Positions 98-10,326 of a stretch of 10,490 nt of DNA are shown in pieces. Every line of letters begins with the position of its first letter. The stretch's first letter is position 1. Both the position numbers and the translations under genes were made by a program. The notes below the pieces were generated by a model. That model worked only from the letters and a program-made list of their open reading frames with translations. It was not told the origin of the DNA and did no database searches. This DNA is from Candidatus Fermentibacterota bacterium. GTDB taxonomy: Bacteria; JAFGKV01. The DNA lies in assembly GCA_030620115.1 (NCBI GenBank), contig JAUXFG010000138.1:1-10490 (forward strand), written 5' to 3'.

Positions 98-2119
98 TCA
101 TGTGAACCATACTATAACTACATAGTCGTCGGCATTGGTCACACTGCTGGGTACATCCCAATCATAAGAGCCGTTGTTCAATGCACTGCTGGAAATTGTC
201 ACTGCGGGGAATCCCGGCCGGCGCAGCTTGATCGACACATTCTTCGGCAGATCGCCGGTACCCCATCGAATCGGAACATTCCGGTCTCCGGGATGCCAAA
301 TTGTCGAGGAATTCGGCTCTGTTACCAATATGTCCCCGTACTGCTGTAGGGAAATATCAACTTCAACCGGATTCTCGTCCGGATCGTTGCTCCTGATTAT
401 GAGATCCGCCTGATACGGATCTGGATCTAATCCCGTGGTATCGACCCGGACCATAATCGTCTCATGTGAATGCTTGGCGATACTGACCGCATTGGGTTGT
501 GCTGTCAGCCATAATTCCGACGATTCAATCTGCGCCACGAGTGTTCCATACCCGATATTGGCTATGGTCAGTGTTCCCGTTAGACTGACGGCAACCTCCG
601 TCGAGAAGGAGAACGAGTCGGGGCTGACGGTGATATCAACGGGGAGAATGTGCAAAGTAGACGAGGCCTCCTGATCGGCTTCATTCCCCGCCCTATCCTC
701 GAACGTGAACCAGGGTTTCCCTTCCCATGGCCCGGAATCCACAACCCAATCCAATTCGTAGATCCCATCTCCGGCAGTCTCGTCGCCCCCTGTCCCGTCA
801 TCCATCAGTATGACTTCCACGCTTGTTCCGATGAGAACTCGACCGTTCCCTTCCGGCTCGCCGCAATCCGCTCGAGAATGTATCGTTTCGCCCATGCCGA
901 TACTATCCGCATCGAAGGTGAAATCTCGTATCACCACCTCCGTGTCCAATCCAATCATATCGGAAATGGGATCGGTCTCAATCAGGAATTCATTCCGAAA
1001 TTGCGCTGTTACCTGTTTGTCCCCATCTCCCGTACTGACCGTCAACGTCGCGGTCGTATCGAAAGGCATCCATGACGCGCCGCTGAGATCCGTCCCCTCC
1101 GCAATCCGCATTTCCGAGACGCCGGCGCAATCAAGCGTCAGAATCGCGTTCCGATCGTTTGTGTAGGGATCGTCATCATTCATGACGATTTCCCCATCGC
1201 CCGGTTGGTTCGGTAGTATGCCATCTTGTACCTCGGCGGTCTCGATCTCGAACGTATCACGGAAAATGGCATAAACCCTCTTTTCGCTTTCGCCGGTCGC
1301 CAAAGTCACATGTACGGTGTCCTGAAAGGCTCTCCAAGCAGCCGCCTCAGTCGTATCCGCCCATACCCGCATCTCCTCCGCTCCCGTACATTCAAGCCGC
1401 ACCACCACATCTCGTGTTGCCGTATGCGTCGCCCCCTCATCGATCACCACGCTTGGTGTTCCCATGGCAGCAGGTAGAATCATATCCTGGGCCCTACCTG
1501 CTGTGTCACCGCCCGCATATGAGGCCCGCGCGTAGACGACCTTCTCGCCCGGTCCCATCGTCAGTGTCCAATCCAAGCTGCTCTGAAATGCCATCCACTC
1601 CCCGCTGTCCGGTTCCGCATGGTTCGATAGCCATATCCGCTCCGCCTCGGCCGCAATAACCGTTACCTCAACCATTCGGCTCGCAATCGTCTCGGCTCCC
1701 TCGGCGATTTCAACATACGGTCCCATGGGTATACGGAACGGTACTACATGCGAGATAGCGCTCTCAACATTTCCCACGAAGGCGCTTACTTTGTAGTAAA
1801 AAACCTTCCCTGCAGATACTCCATCATCCACATAGGTTGTATCAGTAACAATCTCGATCCTCGAATAGCTCCCTGTTGAGTCCAAGCTCCGATAAATGCC
1901 GTACCGGTCTACCGGCACCCCGTCCAACACCACAGAGAACCACTCGAGCACAATCCCCCCACTTCCCACATGTGCCCGTACTCCAAACGGATCTTCCCCT
2001 GACGCCGGATCCAACGGATTACTCCGCTCGGGCGCCTTTAGATCTTTTCCACAGTTGAATGTGCCAACAGCAACCAGGATCATAACCAGCGTCCAAATCA
2101 TCAGGTTTTTCCCGCGCAT
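98..2119 (-). CDS. Surface lipoprotein-like protein with FnIII/Ig-like repeats and a KNH-type C-terminal domain
   Basis: Predicted 673-residue envelope protein with no catalytic motif; probably structural or adhesive. The ATG at 2119 has AAAGGAG six bases upstream. The signal peptide has a basic start (MRGKN) and a hydrophobic core (residues 6-20), then FNC at 21-23. Cys23 could be lipidated, though Asn at -1 is a poor lipobox. After a PERSNPLDP linker come: an FnIII-like domain (about 43-128); three related ~85-residue beta modules (134-216, 224-303, 311-392), each with a 'E-x-R-x-W/A ... W-x-F ... G-(D/E)-x-x-K-x-V' pattern; a domain with DDGTGGDETAGDGIYE (about 395-490); an Ig-like domain of the BACON/ASPM-SPD2-hydin kind (about 496-592); and a segment like the Kre9/KNH (Ser-Thr-rich GPI-anchored) family (598-673: GDRNVPIRWGTGD, then NGSYDWDVP). 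It stops just after the last strand, so the domain may be cut short by a frameshift. It is the last gene of the co-directional set. Domain names are from pattern recognition; the coding call is firm. Confidence 0.9.
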   Translation of the reverse strand: MRGKNLMIWTLVMILVAVGTFNCGKDLKAPERSNPLDPASGEDPFGVRAHVGSGGIVLEWFSVVLDGVPVDRYGIYRSLDSTGSYSRIEIVTDTTYVDDGVSAGKVFYYKVSAFVGNVESAISHVVPFRIPMGPYVEIAEGAETIASRMVEVTVIAAEAERIWLSNHAEPDSGEWMAFQSSLDWTLTMGPGEKVVYARASYAGGDTAGRAQDMILPAAMGTPSVVIDEGATHTATRDVVVRLECTGAEEMRVWADTTEAAAWRAFQDTVHVTLATGESEKRVYAIFRDTFEIETAEVQDGILPNQPGDGEIVMNDDDPYTNDRNAILTLDCAGVSEMRIAEGTDLSGASWMPFDTTATLTVSTGDGDKQVTAQFRNEFLIETDPISDMIGLDTEVVIRDFTFDADSIGMGETIHSRADCGEPEGNGRVLIGTSVEVILMDDGTGGDETAGDGIYELDWVVDSGPWEGKPWFTFEDRAGNEADQEASSTLHILPVDITVSPDSFSFSTEVAVSLTGTLTIANIGYGTLVAQIESSELWLTAQPNAVSIAKHSHETIMVRVDTTGLDPDPYQADLIIRSNDPDENPVEVDISLQQYGDILVTEPNSSTIWHPGDRNVPIRWGTGDLPKNVSIKLRRPGFPAVTISSSALNNGSYDWDVPSSVTNADDYVVIVWFT

Positions 2120-2125
2120 GTGAAG

Positions 2126-2132
2126 CTCCTTT
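2126..2132 (-). promoter_or_regulatory. Ribosome binding site that sets the lipoprotein-like gene's start
   Basis: AAAGGAG lies six bases before the ATG at 2119. It favours this start over the in-frame ATG at 2161, whose 14-residue extension would push a basic segment in front of the signal peptide. Confidence 0.8.
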
Positions 2133-2187
2133 GAAGATCTGCAGATCAGTCTACGACCCATTCGCGCCCTACGGCGCTCCTACGTGT

Positions 2188-2222
2188 CCCCTCACCTCAA
2201 TCCTCTCCCCAGGGAGAGGAGG
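2188..2222. repeat. Half copy of the intergenic nested-palindrome repeat
   Basis: Degenerate left half of the element seen complete at 3527-3635: CCCCTCACCTCAATCCTCTC, then CCC, A and GGGAGAGGAGG. The small CTCTCCC/GGGAGAG palindrome is intact, but the right half is missing. It lies between the lipoprotein-like gene and the VWA gene, in the same orientation as the other copies. I see no gene in the rest of the 199-bp gap, only a short CATGG-AGG-CCATG inverted repeat at 2275-2287. Confidence 0.75.
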
Positions 2223-2318: not shown

Positions 2319-3425
2319 CTAGCCCATCACACCATACAACGCCCCGACAAGGCTTCCCAGGAGCGTGAGCAAGATCACCGCGAGGATAACGACACCAGGC
2401 TTCCTTCGTCTGATAGCAATGGCAAGCACCAATCCGAGGCAGAGGCCGACCGCTCCGCCGGCGGCAATGTGCAACCAGACCAATCCGGGCTCAGCGACAA
2501 CAGCAGGTGCGGGGGTTATCTCCCTACGTTCTGAACTAGAGCGAGGCTCCCCTGTGAGTTCGAGAAGACGCCGGCCGGTCAGGCGTACCGTCTCCGCCTG
2601 TACCGCGATTGCCAAGACATGAGTCCCTCCCTCCCGCACATCTTCCGGGATTTTGAACCTCACCACATATCCGCTCTCAAGCTCCGCGGCGATGGCGCGG
2701 TAGATCTTGATCAGATCCCCTGGACCGGGAGCATGGAAATACTGGCCACCTGTGCTCGCAGCAATTGCGGCCAGTTTGGCAGATTCAACCCCACTTCCCA
2801 GACCAACGGTATAGACCGGTACGGAGTAGTCTGCCAGCTTCGCTTTCAGTTCCTCAAATGAAGTCTTGCTTCGAGTATCCTTCCCATCAGTTAGCGCAAC
2901 CATCGCTCTACGGGGGGCCCAGTGTTTCTGTATTGGCGGTAGAATCGTGAGTATGGCATCGTAGAGGGCCGTGTTCTTTCCTATCTCGATGTTCCGAATA
3001 GCATCAGCGACTCCTTGCTCCTTCCGCAGAAACGCCGGCTCGGGCAACGGATCTTCATCGAAAGGCACAACGGCGAAGAGTGTCTGATGGCCACACCGTG
3101 CAACGAAATCTTCGGCCGCCTCCTTCGCCGCGGCAAGGGGCTTCCCCTTCATGCTTCCGCTCTTGTCGATAAGCATGGCTACCGAGAGCCATTGCTCCGT
3201 GACGGGAAACACGTCGGTCACTGACACTTCTCCGTCATCCAATGCAAGGGTGAATCGGTCTGTGGTAAGACCGGTGATAAGGTTGCCGCTATTGTCGCGA
3301 ACAGTGACAATTGTCTGAAAGCTCCTCTCGCTCAACGGTGTGGGTGAGAGAATATCCACCTCACGGGCGGCAACACACGCTCCCAGAAAAGAAAACACCA
3401 AAACGAAGCACATCCCATTCTTCAT
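2319..3425 (-). CDS. VWA-domain protein with signal peptide and two C-terminal transmembrane helices
   Basis: 368-residue envelope protein. VWA domains bind protein ligands through a metal ion held by the MIDAS motif. The ATG at 3425 has AGGAGG four bases upstream. The N-terminus (MKNGMCFVLVFSFLGACVAA) is a signal peptide that can be read two ways: LGAC is a good lipobox (Cys17), while ACVAA-R also fits signal peptidase I. A short beta-rich region follows (22-75, with 'IVTVRDNSGNLITGLTTDRF', the style found before VWA domains in VWFA-related proteins). The VWA domain spans about 80-255, with MIDAS residues Asp87-x-Ser89-x-Ser91, Thr152 and Asp180 all present, so metal binding should be intact. 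Two hydrophobic helices (about 314-338 and 344-366) surround an RRRK turn, leaving the VWA outside and a short basic loop inside. It resembles BatA/BatB-like VWA proteins in layout, but no MoxR ATPase gene is visible. It sits between the FGE-like and lipoprotein-like genes. Confidence 0.93.
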   Translation of the reverse strand: MKNGMCFVLVFSFLGACVAAREVDILSPTPLSERSFQTIVTVRDNSGNLITGLTTDRFTLALDDGEVSVTDVFPVTEQWLSVAMLIDKSGSMKGKPLAAAKEAAEDFVARCGHQTLFAVVPFDEDPLPEPAFLRKEQGVADAIRNIEIGKNTALYDAILTILPPIQKHWAPRRAMVALTDGKDTRSKTSFEELKAKLADYSVPVYTVGLGSGVESAKLAAIAASTGGQYFHAPGPGDLIKIYRAIAAELESGYVVRFKIPEDVREGGTHVLAIAVQAETVRLTGRRLLELTGEPRSSSERREITPAPAVVAEPGLVWLHIAAGGAVGLCLGLVLAIAIRRRKPGVVILAVILLTLLGSLVGALYGVMG

Positions 3426-3429
3426 GAGC

Positions 3430-3435
3430 CCTCCT
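3430..3435 (-). promoter_or_regulatory. Ribosome binding site of the VWA/two-TM gene
   Basis: AGGAGG, four bases before the ATG at 3425. It decides against the longer reading from 3509, whose first ~14 residues would be translated from the intergenic repeat. Confidence 0.85.
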
Positions 3436-3463
3436 ATAATGCCAGATCCAACAACTCTCCAAT

Positions 3464-3497
3464 CCCTTCTCCCCCAGGGAGAAGGAAAGGATGAGGG
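3464..3497. repeat. Half copy (right half) of the nested-palindrome repeat
   Basis: CCCTTCTCCC, CCA and GGGAGAAGG, then AAAGGATGAGGG. It matches the right half of the complete copy at 3527-3635, with AAAGG for GTTAGG. It lies about 38 bp upstream of the VWA gene start. The left half is absent, probably lost or overwritten by the start region of that gene. Confidence 0.8.
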
Positions 3498-3526
3498 AGT
3501 GCTCCTCATCTACATCCATCTTCCTT

Positions 3527-3635
3527 CCCCTCACCCTAACCCTCTCCCCATGGGAGAGGGAAACATTGGTACAACCCGTATTCCCGTCTTCCCTCCAATC
3601 CCTTCTCCCCGGGGGAGAAGGTTAGGATGAGGGGG
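3527..3635. repeat. Complete ~109-bp nested inverted-repeat element
   Basis: The left arm (CCCCTCACCCTAACC...) and right arm (...GGTTAGGATGAGGGG) are inverted repeats of about 22 bases with two mismatches. Inside each arm is a smaller palindrome: CCCTCTCCC-CAT-GGGAGAGGG at the left and CTTCTCCCC-GG-GGGAGAAG at the right. About 40 bp of less conserved sequence separates them. There is no coding capacity. This is the best-preserved copy and the reference for the others. It resembles the CCCTCACCCTAACCC-type intergenic repeats common in many environmental bacterial genomes; its mobility and role are not known to me. Confidence 0.85.
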
Positions 3636-3660
3636 CTCTTCCCGTTTGCATCCAAGATTC

Positions 3661-3763
3661 CCCCCTCACCCTAACCCTCTCCCAGTGGGAGAGGGAAGCG
3701 TTGAGTTGACGCCACATATCGATCTTCCCTCCAGCCCCTTCTCCCTCAGGGAGAAGGCTAGAA
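3661..3763. repeat. Nested inverted-repeat element with decayed right end
   Basis: The left arm is intact (CCCCCTCACCCTAACC, then CCCTCTCCC-AGT-GGGAGAGGG). The inner palindrome CTTCTCCC-TCA-GGGAGAAG is present, but the right terminus reads GGCTAGAATCTG instead of GGTTAGGATGAGGG. A 25-bp spacer separates it from the preceding copy, so 3464-3763 is a cluster of two and a half copies. Confidence 0.8.
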
Positions 3764-3766
3764 TCT

Positions 3767-3825
3767 GCGGAGCGCTTCGCGCTTCCGTCCTTATGCGCTC
3801 CCGCGCAAGGACTCCGCCGCTCCGC
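3767..3825. other. GC-rich nested stem-loop downstream of the FGE-like gene
   Basis: The outer stem is GCGGAGCG (3767-3774) with CGCTCCGC (3818-3825), a perfect 8 bp. The inner stem is GTCCTT-(AT bulge)-GCGC (3787-3798) with GCGCAAGGAC (3803-3812), giving 10 bp around a TCCC loop. It begins 46 bp past the stop codon at 3872 on the coding strand. No T-run follows, so it is not a typical intrinsic terminator. Given the VR-like tail of the gene, it could be the DNA hairpin or cruciform known to follow variable regions in diversity-generating retroelements. That role is inferred; the pairing is directly visible. Confidence 0.65.
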
Positions 3826-3871: not shown

Positions 3872-5452
3872 TCACTCCTTCCTCAGGAGGCGGAAGCCCA
3901 GGTTGAAGTAGCGGCGACCGGGGACGCCCCTGCCGCGACTCGCGGAACGGCAGAGCCTCGCGTAGAAGCGCCAACTCCCGCCGCGGGAGACCCGGAGCGA
4001 GCCTGAGGATGGGCCGATCGGATCGGTTACACTTCTACTCGGATAGTCTCCGTACCAGTCCCAGCACCATTCCCATACGTTCCCATGCATATCGTACAAT
4101 CCCCACGCATTCGCCTTCCCGCTCCCGGCTTCCCAGGTTTCCTTGCGATCCCGGCCCTTGCTGCAGCCTGAGTACGGATAGTCCCCATCATAATTCGCTT
4201 CATTCGTACTTAGACAGCTCCCCGTGTGAAACGGCCCCATCGTCCCCGCCCTGCACGCATACTCCCACTCAGCCTCCGTAGGCAGCCGATAGCCGTTTCC
4301 ACCATGATCCCATGTAACGGAAGTCCCCGTGATTTGATAACACGGCCTCAACCCCTCATTCCTCGACAACGTATTGCAGAACTCCACCGCGTCGTACCAC
4401 GACACCTTCTCAACAGGCCGCTTCCTCCCCTTGAGATGCGACGGACTACTCCCCATCACCGCTTCATACTGCTCCTGCGTCACCTCATACTTCCCCACCC
4501 AGAATCCCTTGCTCAACGTCACCCTGTGCTGCCTTTCATCAGAATCGTGACTGGCCTCACTGCTCGGTGATCCCATTTGGAAGCTCCCTGATGGGATCCA
4601 GACCATCGTCAGTTGTTTGCCACCAGGCAACCAAAACACCTTCTCCTCACCGGCTTCGCGGGGACATCCCTTGATCCCAGCTTCCGCCCGAGTATCCCCT
4701 GGTTTCCACCTCAAAACCTGCCTATGCAGGCTGCATGCCTTCGTCCTGTCCCCCCTCCTCTCCGCCTCGTCCGCCAGTCCAAGCGCCACCTCAACGCAAA
4801 CCTCCTTGGCTTTCTTCTCCAATTCCCTCCTATACGCTTCTGTTACTTCCGCTTGTCCAAACGCTCCCGTCGCATCACAACACTTGCCGGGCATCTCCTT
4901 GAGAAAAGCCTCCCGCAATACTCCTCTCCCCTCCACCCAATCCCAACTTCCCGCCAACGCCAGTAGCGCTTTTCTTGACGCTCCTACATGATCCTGTGTC
5001 TCCATCAGGTATCTCGCCTCATCAAGCGCCCACTCACGATTCTTCTTCATCTCTGCTAACCATGCTTCGTACTGCCGTCTCTCACGTTCCGCCTTCGCTG
5101 CCTCTTCTCGTCTCCGCTGCTCCTCCTGAACCTTCCCCTCGCACTCCTTGATCCGATCCTTGGCCTCAGGATGCCCTGGCCGCAACTCCTCCATTCTCTG
5201 ATACAACCCAAGCGCCTCCGCCCATTTCCCGCTCTCATACGCAGCCCGCGCTCTTTTCAGAACCTCCATGGCATCTGTCAGGCTTTGCTCCGGCTCAACC
5301 GCCTTCGAGAAATCGAACCCACATTCCTTACAGAACTTCGCTATCTCCTGGTTCTCAGCTCCGCATCTGGGACAGGGCTTGGCATACGCCTGAGCAAACC
5401 CCACTGCCGCTATCAACAGCACAACAACCACCAAGATTATCTCTCGCTTCAT
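3872..5452 (-). CDS. Secreted zinc-ribbon/FGE-like (SUMF1-fold) protein, candidate DGR target
   Basis: 526 residues. A signal peptide (1-24, cleavage near AYA-K) precedes a zinc ribbon with Cys27, Cys30, Cys41 and Cys44. Then come a TPR-like helical pair (about 58-100), a charged coiled coil (101-140, rich in E/R/K) and more helices to about 265. The C-terminal FGE-sulfatase domain (about 275-523) has hallmark stretches: WIPSGSFQMGS, YEVTQEQYEAVMG, PVEKVSWYDAVEFCN, GYRLPTEAEWEYACRAGT, GLYDMHGNVWEWCWDWYG, RGGSW and LGFRLL. Catalytic Cys336 and Cys341 of human SUMF1 have no counterpart: Ala498 sits at the second site, and the only nearby Cys (501) is three residues on. So formylglycine synthesis is unlikely and ligand binding more likely, as in the Treponema DGR protein TvpA, which shares this C-type-lectin-like fold. 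The last ~35 codons look like a DGR variable region (separate entry). Start: ATG with GGAGGG eight bases upstream. An alternative reading is an ordinary non-catalytic SUMF1/PvdO-family protein with no active diversification. Confidence 0.93.
   Translation of the reverse strand: MKREIILVVVVLLIAAVGFAQAYAKPCPRCGAENQEIAKFCKECGFDFSKAVEPEQSLTDAMEVLKRARAAYESGKWAEALGLYQRMEELRPGHPEAKDRIKECEGKVQEEQRRREEAAKAERERRQYEAWLAEMKKNREWALDEARYLMETQDHVGASRKALLALAGSWDWVEGRGVLREAFLKEMPGKCCDATGAFGQAEVTEAYRRELEKKAKEVCVEVALGLADEAERRGDRTKACSLHRQVLRWKPGDTRAEAGIKGCPREAGEEKVFWLPGGKQLTMVWIPSGSFQMGSPSSEASHDSDERQHRVTLSKGFWVGKYEVTQEQYEAVMGSSPSHLKGRKRPVEKVSWYDAVEFCNTLSRNEGLRPCYQITGTSVTWDHGGNGYRLPTEAEWEYACRAGTMGPFHTGSCLSTNEANYDGDYPYSGCSKGRDRKETWEAGSGKANAWGLYDMHGNVWEWCWDWYGDYPSRSVTDPIGPSSGSLRVSRGGSWRFYARLCRSASRGRGVPGRRYFNLGFRLLRKE
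3884..3985 (-). other. Putative DGR variable region (VR) at the 3' end of the FGE-like gene
   Basis: Residues 490-523 read RGGSW-RFY-AR-L-CRSA-S-R-GRGV-P-G-RR-YFN-LGFRLL. The fixed frame matches FGE-type DGR targets, whose template repeats typically encode asparagines at the changing sites. The positions expected to vary use CGC, TTC, TAC (495-497), CTC (500), AGT (505), GGC (507), GGC, GTC (509-510), GGT (512), CGC (513), TAC, TTC, AAC (515-517). All thirteen end in C or T, as expected if AAC/AAT template codons were mutated at adenines to NNY. What is seen is the frame and codon pattern. That it is a true VR is inferred: no template repeat or reverse transcriptase is present in the window. 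Confidence 0.6.
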
Positions 5453-5499: not shown

Positions 5500-5621
5500 C
5501 CCCTCACCCTAACTCTCTCCCCACGGGAGAGGGAATTATTGGTTCAACCCACATTCCCATCTTCCCTCCCAGGCCCTTCTCCCCTCAGGGAGAAGGCTAG
5601 GATGAGGGCTAGGATGTGGGG
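5500..5621. repeat. Nested inverted-repeat element with duplicated right end
   Basis: Complete copy: CCCCTCACCCTAAC at the left, CTCTCCC-CAC-GGGAGAG, an internal ATTGGTTCAACCCACATTCC segment, then CCCTTCTCCCC-TCA-GGGAGAAGG and GCTAGGATGAGGG. The right terminus is tandemly duplicated (GCTAGGATGAGG then GCTAGGATGTGG), probably by slippage. It lies about 34 bp upstream of the ribosome site of the FGE-like gene. Confidence 0.82.
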
Positions 5622-5649
5622 GCTCTGCTCATCTACATCCATCTTCCTT

Positions 5650-5756
5650 CCCCTCACCCTAACCCTCTCCCCGCGGGAGAGGGGATCATTTGTGCCACCC
5701 GCATTCCCTCTCCCTACAGTCCCTTCTCCCCCCGGGAGAAGGCTAGGATGAGGGGG
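5650..5756. repeat. Complete nested inverted-repeat element
   Basis: The left arm CCCCTCACCCTAACC, palindrome CCCTCTCCC-CGC-GGGAGAGGG, palindrome CTTCTCCC-CCC-GGGAGAAG and right arm GGCTAGGATGAGGGGG are all intact. The 28-bp spacer between this copy and the one at 5500 contains CTCATCTACATCCATCTTCC. The same words stand before the copy at 3527, so a larger unit than one element was duplicated. Confidence 0.83.
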
Positions 5757-5918: not shown

Positions 5919-8261
5919 CTATCCCTCCGGCAAGCGGAACTCAAGCGTAGTTTCACCCATCCTTATGACGTCACCTGGTCTAAGGGACGCCTCATGGACC
6001 TTTTGGTCATTTACATACGTTCCATTCGTGCTCCCGAGATCTACGATCCGGAAGCCTTGCTTATTGCATTCAATCCGCGCATGGCGGCCAGACATCTTCT
6101 CATCCTGAATTGCCACATCATTTCCTACCGATCGCCCAAGAGTACTGATCCGCTTCGTGAGGACATAGTGTTCCCTTTCAACCCCCTTCACTAGCAGCAA
6201 CCCCACGACAGTTGGAGAAGCCATTCTTCTTCCACGATTGAAAAGCACCAATGTCCCCGCACCCAGCAAAATGATCACGGCCCACAACCCGCCCAGAACA
6301 TACCAGAGAGGATCCGTATCGCGTCCATATCGAACCACGATCCGGTGAGATTCGGGCGTCACCGGCTGCGGATGGACCTGTCCCGGCCAGTAATGAATTT
6401 CATTCGTGGCCCTCGTCAGAGCCCTTGTCAGCTGTGGTAGGTTGTCGGCTCTATGGAACGAGCCTTGCGCCGCCTGAGCAATAGCTTCGAGCTGCCTCTG
6501 GGCTTCAGGCTCCACATCGAAGGCAATGACTGAGAGCCTTATGGGCCTAGTCTGCGCCGCCGCGTACACGGTGGATCCCAAGAGCTCCATCAGTCCGCTC
6601 AGTGGACCCAATATTCCCACGTTCAACTCCCTCGCAGCTGTCACAGGGTCCCCGCCACATGTTTCCATCCCGTCTGAGATCAGTATCAATGATAGTTCTG
6701 ATGATTGTGGCCTGCTTCTGAGAATCCTCGCCCCCTCACGTATCGCCGATTCGATTGGAGTCTTGCCTTCCGGTTCCAATGGCCCGATAGCTGCCGTGAT
6801 GGCCGCGGCGTCACGTCCGAAATCACAGATCAGTCGAGTCGCGCACCTTCCTCCAAAGGCCAAGACCCCGAACTCATTGCCTGGAGACTGCGAGAACTGC
6901 TCAACAGCGATTGCCAGCGCTTCCTTGGCCGCATCGATCTTGCGCTGTGACGAACCGGGGCAGCGATCCTTCATACTCCCCGAAGTATCGAGCAGGAACA
7001 GTATCGTTGTGTTCCCTGCAATAATCGGCCCGCCGAGGCCCCCGGCTTGCAGCGGCTGGCAGACTCCTGGAGCATATCCCCTTGTGCAGTCCTCCTTCGT
7101 CCCTTCGTAGTATTCGACCCACTGCTCATAGCGTTTCCCTAACAGGAGAATGCTGTTCACGAAGTCCCTGAACTTCGCCTCTCCGGTTGAGAATGCCCGA
7201 ATCATGTAGTCATAGAACTGTACGCCAAGATGGGCTTTGACAGAGATCATACAGCTGGAATTCGCCTGACTCGATTTGTGCAAAATCCCCCACAATTCCC
7301 CGGACAGACACGCTCGTCTCGCCAACTCCTCCTGGTTGTAGATTCCCATGATGACTTTGAATTCCAAGGCGAATGCCCAGCCATGAGGAAGATGTGCGAG
7401 GAGGCCTATGACTCCCGTGGACAAGAGATCAAGCTTGTTGTCGTCTATGGCTACGCTCATCGCACCAAGGAAGTCGCGCCATGTGCTCTCCTGCATCATG
7501 ACATCGATATTTCCACGCACACGAGATAATGCCTCGATCATGGCAGGATCGGGAGAAGACAAGCCCCGAATCAGAGCTTCAAGCTCCGAGAGACGAAGGT
7601 CCGCCTCGTCGTTGGCAAGGGCTTGGAGAACAGCGGTAGTCAACGCAACATCGCCGACTTGGCCGACGGCGGCCATAATATCCACCGCCCCGCTCAGCGC
7701 CCCCATGGCTCTGCCCTGCCCGCCGAATACATGGCGAACCGATCTTCCATGGACTTTGAGCGTATTGACCAAATCACGTGATGCCGTTCCACCTGGGATG
7801 TATCTCAAGTTGGTCAAATCCCGAACGTGCGGACTCACAGAGGCGAGATCAGACGCAATGCTGAACAATGTCGAAATTTGCTGTCCTGTTTCTGTACCTT
7901 GATCCCACGCCCCAGTCAGAGACTGACCAAGATTTCGGAACCAAAGATCAGAGAAAAGGGGTTGCAGCACGGCATCCCGAATGACTTCCTCATAGAGGTC
8001 AACCCGCTTGCCGTAGTTCCATAGAGTAGGCGCCCCGCGCCCCTCACCCACGAGTCGAACATAGTTCCGATCGCTCTCGAGGGATTCCGGAATCTTCACC
8101 TGGTAGTAGTTCCCTTGGCTGTCGTGGAGGGTCTCACCCAGGTGCGCCTGTGAGAAGTCGCGGCTGAGAACACAGTGTGCATCCGCATTCTCGACCATAC
8201 TCAGCACAAAGACGCCCATCATGCCCATCATACAAACCAACCCAACCCGATTACAATTCAT
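5919..8261 (-). CDS. VWA-TM-FHA protein (extracytoplasmic VWA, cytoplasmic phosphothreonine-binding FHA)
   Basis: 780 residues. The ATG at 8261 has GAGGAGG five bases upstream. The signal peptide runs to about residue 28 (ENADA-H). Residues 30-400 form a mostly helical region with no family I recognise, including a small WNYGKRVDLYEEVIRDAV segment and scattered Cys. The VWA domain (about 417-615) keeps the MIDAS residues: Asp425-x-Ser427-x-Ser429, Thr501 and Asp530 (ISDGMETC). One strong membrane helix (about 651-674, WYVLGGLWAVIILLGAGTLVLF) is followed by RGRR, a positive-inside stop-transfer. The C-terminal FHA domain (about 690-777) has Gly709-Arg710-Ser711, Ser724-Gly-Arg-His727 and Asn746-Gly-Thr748, the phosphothreonine-binding set. 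The VWA should therefore sit outside and the FHA inside, where it could dock on proteins phosphorylated by the kinase encoded just upstream in transcription order (355-bp gap). This pairing recalls the PpkA-Fha phosphorylation switch of type VI secretion, but no secretion genes are present. Confidence 0.95.
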   Translation of the reverse strand: MNCNRVGLVCMMGMMGVFVLSMVENADAHCVLSRDFSQAHLGETLHDSQGNYYQVKIPESLESDRNYVRLVGEGRGAPTLWNYGKRVDLYEEVIRDAVLQPLFSDLWFRNLGQSLTGAWDQGTETGQQISTLFSIASDLASVSPHVRDLTNLRYIPGGTASRDLVNTLKVHGRSVRHVFGGQGRAMGALSGAVDIMAAVGQVGDVALTTAVLQALANDEADLRLSELEALIRGLSSPDPAMIEALSRVRGNIDVMMQESTWRDFLGAMSVAIDDNKLDLLSTGVIGLLAHLPHGWAFALEFKVIMGIYNQEELARRACLSGELWGILHKSSQANSSCMISVKAHLGVQFYDYMIRAFSTGEAKFRDFVNSILLLGKRYEQWVEYYEGTKEDCTRGYAPGVCQPLQAGGLGGPIIAGNTTILFLLDTSGSMKDRCPGSSQRKIDAAKEALAIAVEQFSQSPGNEFGVLAFGGRCATRLICDFGRDAAAITAAIGPLEPEGKTPIESAIREGARILRSRPQSSELSLILISDGMETCGGDPVTAARELNVGILGPLSGLMELLGSTVYAAAQTRPIRLSVIAFDVEPEAQRQLEAIAQAAQGSFHRADNLPQLTRALTRATNEIHYWPGQVHPQPVTPESHRIVVRYGRDTDPLWYVLGGLWAVIILLGAGTLVLFNRGRRMASPTVVGLLLVKGVEREHYVLTKRISTLGRSVGNDVAIQDEKMSGRHARIECNKQGFRIVDLGSTNGTYVNDQKVHEASLRPGDVIRMGETTLEFRLPEG

Positions 8262-8290: not shown

Positions 8291-8401
8291 CCCCTCACCC
8301 TAACCCTCTCCCACCGGGAGAGGGAACCATTGGCTCACGCCACATTCCCATCTTCTCCCCACCAGTCCCTTCTCCCCTCGGGAGAAGGTTAGGATGAGGG
8401 G
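8291..8401. repeat. Complete nested inverted-repeat element upstream of the VWA-FHA gene
   Basis: CCCCTCACCCTAACC at the left, CCCTCTCCC-ACC-GGGAGAGGG, then ACCATTGGCTCACGCCACATTC in place of the usual middle, CTTCTCCCC-TC-GGGAGAAGG and GTTAGGATGAGGGG at the right. This is a single, well-preserved copy in the same orientation as the others. Confidence 0.85.
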
Positions 8402-8616: not shown

Positions 8617-10326
8617 TCATTTCAACTCATACCCACAGTGGATACAGTACTTCTCATCCGCGGTCCACTTCCTGCAGTTCGGGCAGGCGACCGTAAGGCC
8701 CTGCAAGCTTCTCCCACACATCTGGCAAATCTTGCCTTCTTCAGTTGTCCTTCCACAGTACGGGCACTTGGCTGTCATTGCCTGGACAACCGACGTCTTT
8801 CGCCTGCACTCTGTAATTCTACCACTGTAGTCCCCGCCTCCGCCGATCGTGCCCAGAGATACCGCGTATCGGGCGGCTTTCTCACAATCATGTTCCGCCA
8901 GGCTGCTCTCTATCCAACGCCGATACTTGTCCCTCATCCCATCAATCAGCTCCAAACATACAGAATTCTCCGGCTCTTCCTTCATGATCTCTTGGCAGGT
9001 TTCCCATACATTCCCGTCGGGACCTGACCTGAAGCTGCTGTTTCTGAAAAGCCTCTGAGCCTTCTGTTCCAATGCCACAATGTGGTCACGAGACGGCGAA
9101 GACGTTGGCGTTTCCGGCTTCGGCGGCAGTCTGTCATCAGGCTTATCAACTACGTCTGAGTCACCAGTCACGGGATGCTGATCCCCAATCGATTCATTCC
9201 TGTCAACCTTCATTCCCCCGGAGATGCCGCCAACGCCTGAGGCAACAACGATGACCAATATGACCAGCGCTGCCAACGTGGACCCCAACACCCATGGGAG
9301 GACCGTGTTGCTCTTCCACCATTTCTCTGGTAATCCTGCCGCAAGCGCCGTCTTGACCCGTTTCGCCCCAACCTTATATGTGCGACCCGGTACAACAGCT
9401 TCCTGAGCGCTGCTGCGCGGAGCCGAAGGAGGCGCGGCTGCCGGTTGCGGTTGGGGTACGTGTATCGCCCGCTCCGCGAGCTGGCCCATGGGAATGTAGA
9501 CAGGAAGCCCGGAGGGATCGGAAAGCCCGCGCAGAAGCTGTTCGGCGTTCTGTACACGACCGTTTATGTCTTTGACAAGACAAGCCCCGATCCATCGAAC
9601 CGCCTCTCGAGGCACGTCTTTGAACGAAGGATCGCTCTGCGTCTGATTGAACATGACCGACATCGGATCACCCTTGAATGGTGTATGACCAGTGAGCATT
9701 TCATAGACCATGGATCCGACGGCATAGAGATCAGTTGCAGGGCCTATATCGTCTGTTCCACGGATCGCCTCGGGAGCCATGTAGGCCGGGGTTCCGCTGA
9801 TGGACGTATCCTGAGAGATCCGGCTCATTGACGCCATGATGGACTTGGAGATGCCGAAATCAGCGACTATCGGTATCCCTTCTTCTCGGAACAAGATGTT
9901 CCCTGGTTTTACATCCCGATGTACAATCCCTGCTTCGTGAACAGTCTGAAGACCTCGAAGAATAGGCACGAGAAGCCGTTTCGTTTCCTCCCATGGCACG
10001 AGTCCCCGGTGCCTCCGGTACGAGTTCAGGTCACCTCCCTTGGCCCACTCCATGGTCACGAAATGCCCACCCTCGCCATCGTCCCACATATCGTAGACCC
10101 TGAGCACGTACCGCCCCGAAACCCTCCGAGCCCGTTTCACCTCTCCTGCGAACTGCCCCACCGCCTCGCGATCTTCGGCCATCGCCATCGGCAGGAACTT
10201 GAGCGCCACTTCCTCATCCAGTTTCCTGTCCACCGCGCCGAACACAATCCCCATAGCCCCGGCCCCAAGCCTCACCTTGAGCTCGAACCTCTCAATGATA
10301 ATCATCCCCGGCTGATACCCTAACAC
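8617..10326 (-). CDS. Membrane Hanks-type Ser/Thr protein kinase with C-terminal double zinc ribbon
   Basis: 569 residues. The kinase domain (about 11-270) has every catalytic element: glycine loop LGAGAMG (20-26), Lys43 in VALKFL, Glu62 as the likely C-helix partner, His136-Arg-Asp138 with KPGN (140-143), Asp156-Phe-Gly158, Ala184-Pro-Glu186 and Asp199 of the F-helix. It should therefore be active on Ser/Thr, and its activation loop (161-179) is rich in Ser/Thr for autophosphorylation. A Pro/Ala linker leads to one membrane helix (about 343-363, VLPWVLGSTLAALVILVIVV). After an acidic, Pro-rich stretch and a helical region (412-515) come two zinc ribbons: Cys521/524/534/537 and Cys548/551/561/564. 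With the kinase inside, these ribbons would face the periplasm, which is unusual. The start is a GTG with AGAGG nine bases upstream; it yields GYQPGMIIIERFEL, the usual lead-in to PknB-like domains. ATG at 10305 is the alternative. The likely partner is the FHA protein encoded next. Confidence 0.95.
   Translation of the reverse strand: MLGYQPGMIIIERFELKVRLGAGAMGIVFGAVDRKLDEEVALKFLPMAMAEDREAVGQFAGEVKRARRVSGRYVLRVYDMWDDGEGGHFVTMEWAKGGDLNSYRRHRGLVPWEETKRLLVPILRGLQTVHEAGIVHRDVKPGNILFREEGIPIVADFGISKSIMASMSRISQDTSISGTPAYMAPEAIRGTDDIGPATDLYAVGSMVYEMLTGHTPFKGDPMSVMFNQTQSDPSFKDVPREAVRWIGACLVKDINGRVQNAEQLLRGLSDPSGLPVYIPMGQLAERAIHVPQPQPAAAPPSAPRSSAQEAVVPGRTYKVGAKRVKTALAAGLPEKWWKSNTVLPWVLGSTLAALVILVIVVASGVGGISGGMKVDRNESIGDQHPVTGDSDVVDKPDDRLPPKPETPTSSPSRDHIVALEQKAQRLFRNSSFRSGPDGNVWETCQEIMKEEPENSVCLELIDGMRDKYRRWIESSLAEHDCEKAARYAVSLGTIGGGGDYSGRITECRRKTSVVQAMTAKCPYCGRTTEEGKICQMCGRSLQGLTVACPNCRKWTADEKYCIHCGYELK

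Follow-up and report, generated by a model that had tools for sequence, protein, structure and literature searches.

The window analysed here is a whole contig of 10,490 nucleotides (G000:C216) from a Candidatus Fermentibacterota bacterium, whose draft genome comprises 4.10 Mb in 296 contigs and is 98.3% complete. It carries the following features, centred on a putative DGR target gene:

98..2161, minus strand: large exported-looking protein with an Ig-like (Kre9_KNH) and a choice-of-anchor X domain (Pfam, NCBIfam)
2319..3509, minus strand: VWA protein (Pfam VWA, E 6e-14; 57% identity to a VWA gene at G001:C51, G001 being a genome of the same family)
3787..3812, minus strand: small hairpin 60–85 bases past the stop codon of the target gene (fold –10.2 kcal/mol, z –4.8)
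3872..5452, minus strand: DGR target gene, an open reading frame of 526 aa with a signal-like N-terminus, a zinc ribbon, a helical middle and a C-terminal FGE/C-type-lectin domain
3881..4609, minus strand: FGE-sulfatase/C-type-lectin-fold domain, aa 282–524 (Pfam FGE-sulfatase, E 3e-52)
3887..4000, minus strand: variable region (VR), codons 485–522, aligned without gaps over 114 bases to the templates TR1 and TR2 of G001
3902..3997, minus strand: stretch with the variable codons 486, 489, 495–497, 500, 505, 507–510, 513 and 515–517
5919..8261, minus strand: VWA + FHA protein (Pfam)
8617..10326, minus strand: Ser/Thr protein kinase with a C-terminal zinc ribbon (Pfam Pkinase, E 1e-46), the homologue of which in G001 is a fusion protein on contig C291

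The target protein, whose C-terminal end reads ...GSLRVSRGGSWRFYARLCRSASRGRGVPGRRYFNLGFRLLRKE*, starts with a hydrophobic stretch ending in AQAYA-K that, judged by eye, resembles a signal peptide. The zinc ribbon (aa 27–47, Pfam Zn_Ribbon_1, E 3e-6) is separated from the FGE domain by the helical region. An AlphaFold2 model of the last 247 aa reached a pLDDT of 94.6, and the best structural match to its FGE domain was TvpA, a DGR target of Treponema (VIA-align Z 33.7, rmsd 1.4, 231 residues), while FGE enzymes scored Z 27–28 and Mtd of the Bordetella phage Z 13.4. TvpA (2y3c) was also the top PDB match by sequence (E 5e-38). Predicted model and PDB match hence bear out the FGE/C-type-lectin fold claimed in the original prediction. 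The apparent signal peptide and the fold, as the basis for both proposals, would be consistent with a protein that is exported or surface-displayed and that binds a ligand.

In three genes of related loci (L039, 5909–7726; L043, 6588–8096; L038, 1961–3409), the helical part of the target is followed by PEGA-like repeats instead of an FGE domain; two of them also carry a zinc ribbon and two stand beside kinases. The C-terminus of this gene family may represent a swappable module. Moreover, a zinc-ribbon gene of the target's FGE type at L038 (G001:C51, 6031–7460) seems to be broken, with its N-terminal part and the FGE tail in separate frames.

The suspicion of a VR initially stemmed from thirteen codons near the 3′ end of the target gene, which match the sequence exactly as quoted and all end in C or T (NNY). 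With the amino acids and local codon usage taken into account, this has a probability of ~2.7e-4 (~4e-5 unconditionally), but the thirteen sites were chosen post hoc and the count is therefore not decisive by itself. In fact, the conserved, non-variable FGE tails of L082 (Breznakiella) and L073 reach NNY counts of 11–12, with 12/12 for L082, and many of the 95 FGE tails in related loci, at least two of which are templates, score 11–12 of 12. Conserved tails score this high because only C or T can be the third base in codons for Asn, Asp, Tyr, Phe and His. We consequently rejected the idea that such a count proves a VR, even though the signature of the target gene is intact (12/12) and other FGE paralogues in the family score 4–10.

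Stronger evidence came from relatives, which were sought at the family and order level in a comparison covering three genomes. Related FGE targets are present in all three family genomes, and FGE genes outnumber DGR cores within the family. In G001, RT fragments occur on contigs C111, C334 and C213, with two Asn-rich repeats, TR1 and TR2, beside them. TR1 and the tail of an FGE gene on C318 disagree at 15 adenines, while all 81 other bases are identical; likewise, TR2 and the FGE tail on C334 disagree at 18 adenines, with all 82 other bases identical. An HRDC accessory gene follows each of these targets, and the RT carries the motif IGNLTSQ, which we take to be the DGR form of that RT motif. 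Bona fide DGRs of the FGE type thus exist in this family, with two complete TR–VR pairs in G001. Both DGRs are split across two contigs each, C334 + C213 and C318 + C111 (loci L035, L034, L039 and L033).

The target VR, located at the 3′ end of a gene with a C-type-lectin fold, differs from TR1, a template of a related genus, mainly at adenines: of the 33 adenines in the gapless alignment of 114 bases, 26 are changed, as opposed to 13 of 81 other bases (p 3e-10). Ten of these 13 non-adenine differences fall at third codon positions, and the four bases are now almost evenly represented where the template has adenine (G9, T8, A7, C6). A de-mutated query, in which the variable codons were set to AAY, retrieved TR1 in G001 with 84% over 117 bases (E 8e-30), a match that is partly by construction. 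At codons that are AAY in both G001 templates, and which were thereby fixed independently of the target gene, 12 of 13 target codons are NNY, the exception being AGG at codon 508. The concentration of changes at the adenines of a related genus's template supports the reading as a DGR variable region, and the Asn-rich template inferred in the original prediction is essentially present in that genus as SNRVKRGGSWNNNAQNCRSANRNNNSPGNSNNNIGFRL. However, TR1 and TR2 were rejected as direct templates of the target VR, with 13 and 21 non-adenine mismatches, respectively. Since neither matches the VR at all non-adenine sites, the target's own template is hypothetical; a predicted cognate template would read about SNRVNRGGSWNNNARNCRSANRNRNNPGNRNNNLGFRL.

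The alignment also redraws the limits of the VR. The region proposed originally, 3884–3985, does contain a VR, but its 5′ side reaches farther upstream (~4000) and the other end lies at ~3887, so that the VR ends 12 nt ahead of the stop codon and spans about the last 40 codons. Here, codons were called variable when they are AAY in TR1 and/or TR2 or differ at position 1 or 2 between the target gene and C291. Codon 512 (GGT), listed among the thirteen, is probably a fixed Gly, since it is GGC in both templates. Downstream of the VR, the hairpin at 3787..3812 has a modest, 11-nt imperfect stem, weaker than the stems at the G001 targets (e.g., a 15-nt perfect stem at C318), and is possibly the hairpin found downstream of VRs in DGR targets.

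A further comparison was possible with an orthologous gene on C291 of G001. At L036 on this contig (61–2424), a Ser/Thr kinase and a DGR-type variable FGE domain form a direct fusion that adjoins a VWA-FHA gene; in the window, the same parts are separate genes. The kinase domain of the fusion shares 73% identity with the kinase encoded near the target gene, and the adjoining VWA-FHA protein 54% with the VWA + FHA neighbour. At the 13 template-AAY codons, target and C291 show 12/9/1 differences at codon positions 1/2/3, in contrast to 49/48/82 across 189 aligned codons upstream (p 1e-4). Conserved non-DGR FGE tails (L073, L077, L082) behave in the opposite way, with 6–7 changes at position 3 but 1–3 at positions 1 and 2 in the same columns. 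The pattern of the target gene is the one that adenine-directed rewriting of AAY codons predicts and ordinary selection does not, and the cross-genus comparison goes against a refutation of the DGR reading.

The template repeat and DGR RT that the original prediction proposed to look for in the same genome were both missing from the 296-contig draft, which agrees with one half of what that prediction named as its refutation, albeit in a draft instead of a complete genome. Blastn of the raw VR against this genome matched only the VR itself, with no second copy, and the predicted TR gave, beyond the VR, a best match of 19 bases (E 0.26); the exact TR core had no match in viral contigs. RVT_1 gave no match in the 98.3% complete draft and relatives of the G001 DGR RT none at E ≤ 10, and identical RT queries do detect matches in G001. 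No DGR-like stand-alone HRDC accessory was found in the draft either; its HRDC-domain match (E 2e-8) lies inside a 607-aa frame, unlike the stand-alone accessory. For Eisenbacteria, a literature search found no DGRs.

Taken together, we consider it highly likely that the C-terminus of the target gene is a genuine VR, belonging to a remote or orphaned DGR target whose fold could present randomised residues as a binding patch. The VR signature, its kinship to real TRs, the fold and a core missing from the draft support this directly, whereas export, ligand binding, a signalling role and the time since the last rewriting of the VR are inferred. Such a VR would arise when an error-prone RT copies an Asn-codon-rich template RNA, random bases are inserted opposite the template adenines and the resulting cDNA replaces the 3′ end of the target gene (adenine-specific mutagenic retrohoming). 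The FGE/C-type-lectin fold would then display the randomised residues, and the target protein could probably act as a sensor together with the kinase, VWA and FHA proteins encoded next to it. The core itself (HRDC accessory, RT and TR) would either have been lost recently or be located in unassembled sequence.

These two options were rated about equal. One is quite conceivable: the organism does have an intact core, missed during assembly or binning, which continues to rewrite the VR in trans. Every G001 core is broken at contig ends (C318 + C111, C334 + C213), which indicates that such cassettes assemble badly, the codon signature of the VR is intact, and DGRs acting in trans on remote VRs have been published (PMC10907252, PMC7517822). 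Against it stands that none of three separate core parts appears, even as a fragment, in an assembly of 98.3% completeness. Loss of the core in the lineage, leaving a frozen and ordinarily inherited VR, has close to an even chance and accounts for RT, TR and HRDC accessory all missing from the draft. It also fits the surplus of FGE genes over cores in the family and the precedent of Treponema denticola, where 8 of 17 genomes carry FGE-type targets without TR or RT (PMC4891356, Table 1). Nevertheless, the VR shows no visible decay, with third positions differing from C291 at 1 of 14 variable codons vs. 82 of 189 upstream. An unlikely variation is that the VR is kept diversified without a resident DGR, by cassettes or templates arriving from other cells, phages or plasmids, or by one mobile, rarely resident core shared among many FGE targets.

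Explanations outside DGR activity fared worse. It is very unlikely that an ordinary FGE-family tail mimics a DGR product: although C and T are common third bases in codons for Asn, Asp, Tyr, Phe and Gly and the conserved tails of L082 and L073 reach 11–12 NNY codons, the codon-position pattern toward C291 and TR1/TR2 is opposite to that of conserved tails, and the de-mutated VR matches a real TR. Finally, it is hardly credible that the protein acts catalytically, as a formylglycine-generating enzyme or sulfatase-modifying factor. Such a function would agree with the strong Pfam FGE-sulfatase match and the fit to human FGE (Z 27.7), yet the fold is nearer to TvpA and PvdO, the sequence is nearer to TvpA, and one of the two active-site cysteines is missing. 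Cys501 is present, but the position that presumably corresponds to the first catalytic cysteine of human FGE is occupied by Phe496, a variable codon.

A genuine VR of a remote or orphaned target is in line with several known systems. As here, the VR of TvpA-type targets in T. denticola sits at the C-terminal end of an FGE-type C-type-lectin domain and in the same frame (RVLRGGSWAGSADYCAVGERVNISPGVRCSDLGFRL), and the T. denticola DGR resembles those of G001 in its HRDC accessory gene (PMC4891356). In contrast, many T. denticola targets are lipoproteins, and the N-terminal zinc ribbon, the helical region and the kinase/VWA/FHA neighbours set the present target apart. Cyanobacterial remote variable proteins and the already described kinase-CLec variable proteins (PMC7517822) likewise lie far from any RT and link a C-type-lectin VR domain to Ser/Thr kinases, by fusion as in C291 or, here, by neighbourhood; those genomes do contain a DGR, whereas none was found in this draft. 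FGE/CLec VRs, VWA plus kinase signalling and incomplete DGR loci are further shared with the putative conflict-system sensors of Thiohalocapsa PB-PSB1 and the VMAP ternary systems (PMC10907252, PMC7159879), but this contig encodes no MoxR ATPase, VMAP, EAD or STAND protein. A defence-system reading of the locus was rejected, as PADLOC matched the kinase only, with many kinase-containing models.

Remote and orphaned DGR targets are already published and the mechanism is well known. The present locus brings in an uncultured bacterial family: one member has two real DGRs, and related FGE targets in all three are associated with genes for Ser/Thr kinases and for VWA and FHA proteins. Moreover, the codon-position contrast between orthologous VRs, combined with a de-mutated query, offers a usable test for VRs without RT or TR, which are overlooked by surveys requiring an adjacent RT, a limitation stated in PMC8144416. 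Across loci L059–L138, many Treponema MAGs carry several VR-like FGE tails and no RT in the flanks examined, L117 being the only one with an RT nearby.

Apart from the target gene, intergenic CTCACCCTAACCCTCTCCC-type repeats occur on both strands of the window (2191–2209, 3530–3683, 5503–5752 and 8294–8398). With 10 matches vs. 0.01 expected, they likely represent a dispersed palindromic repeat family.
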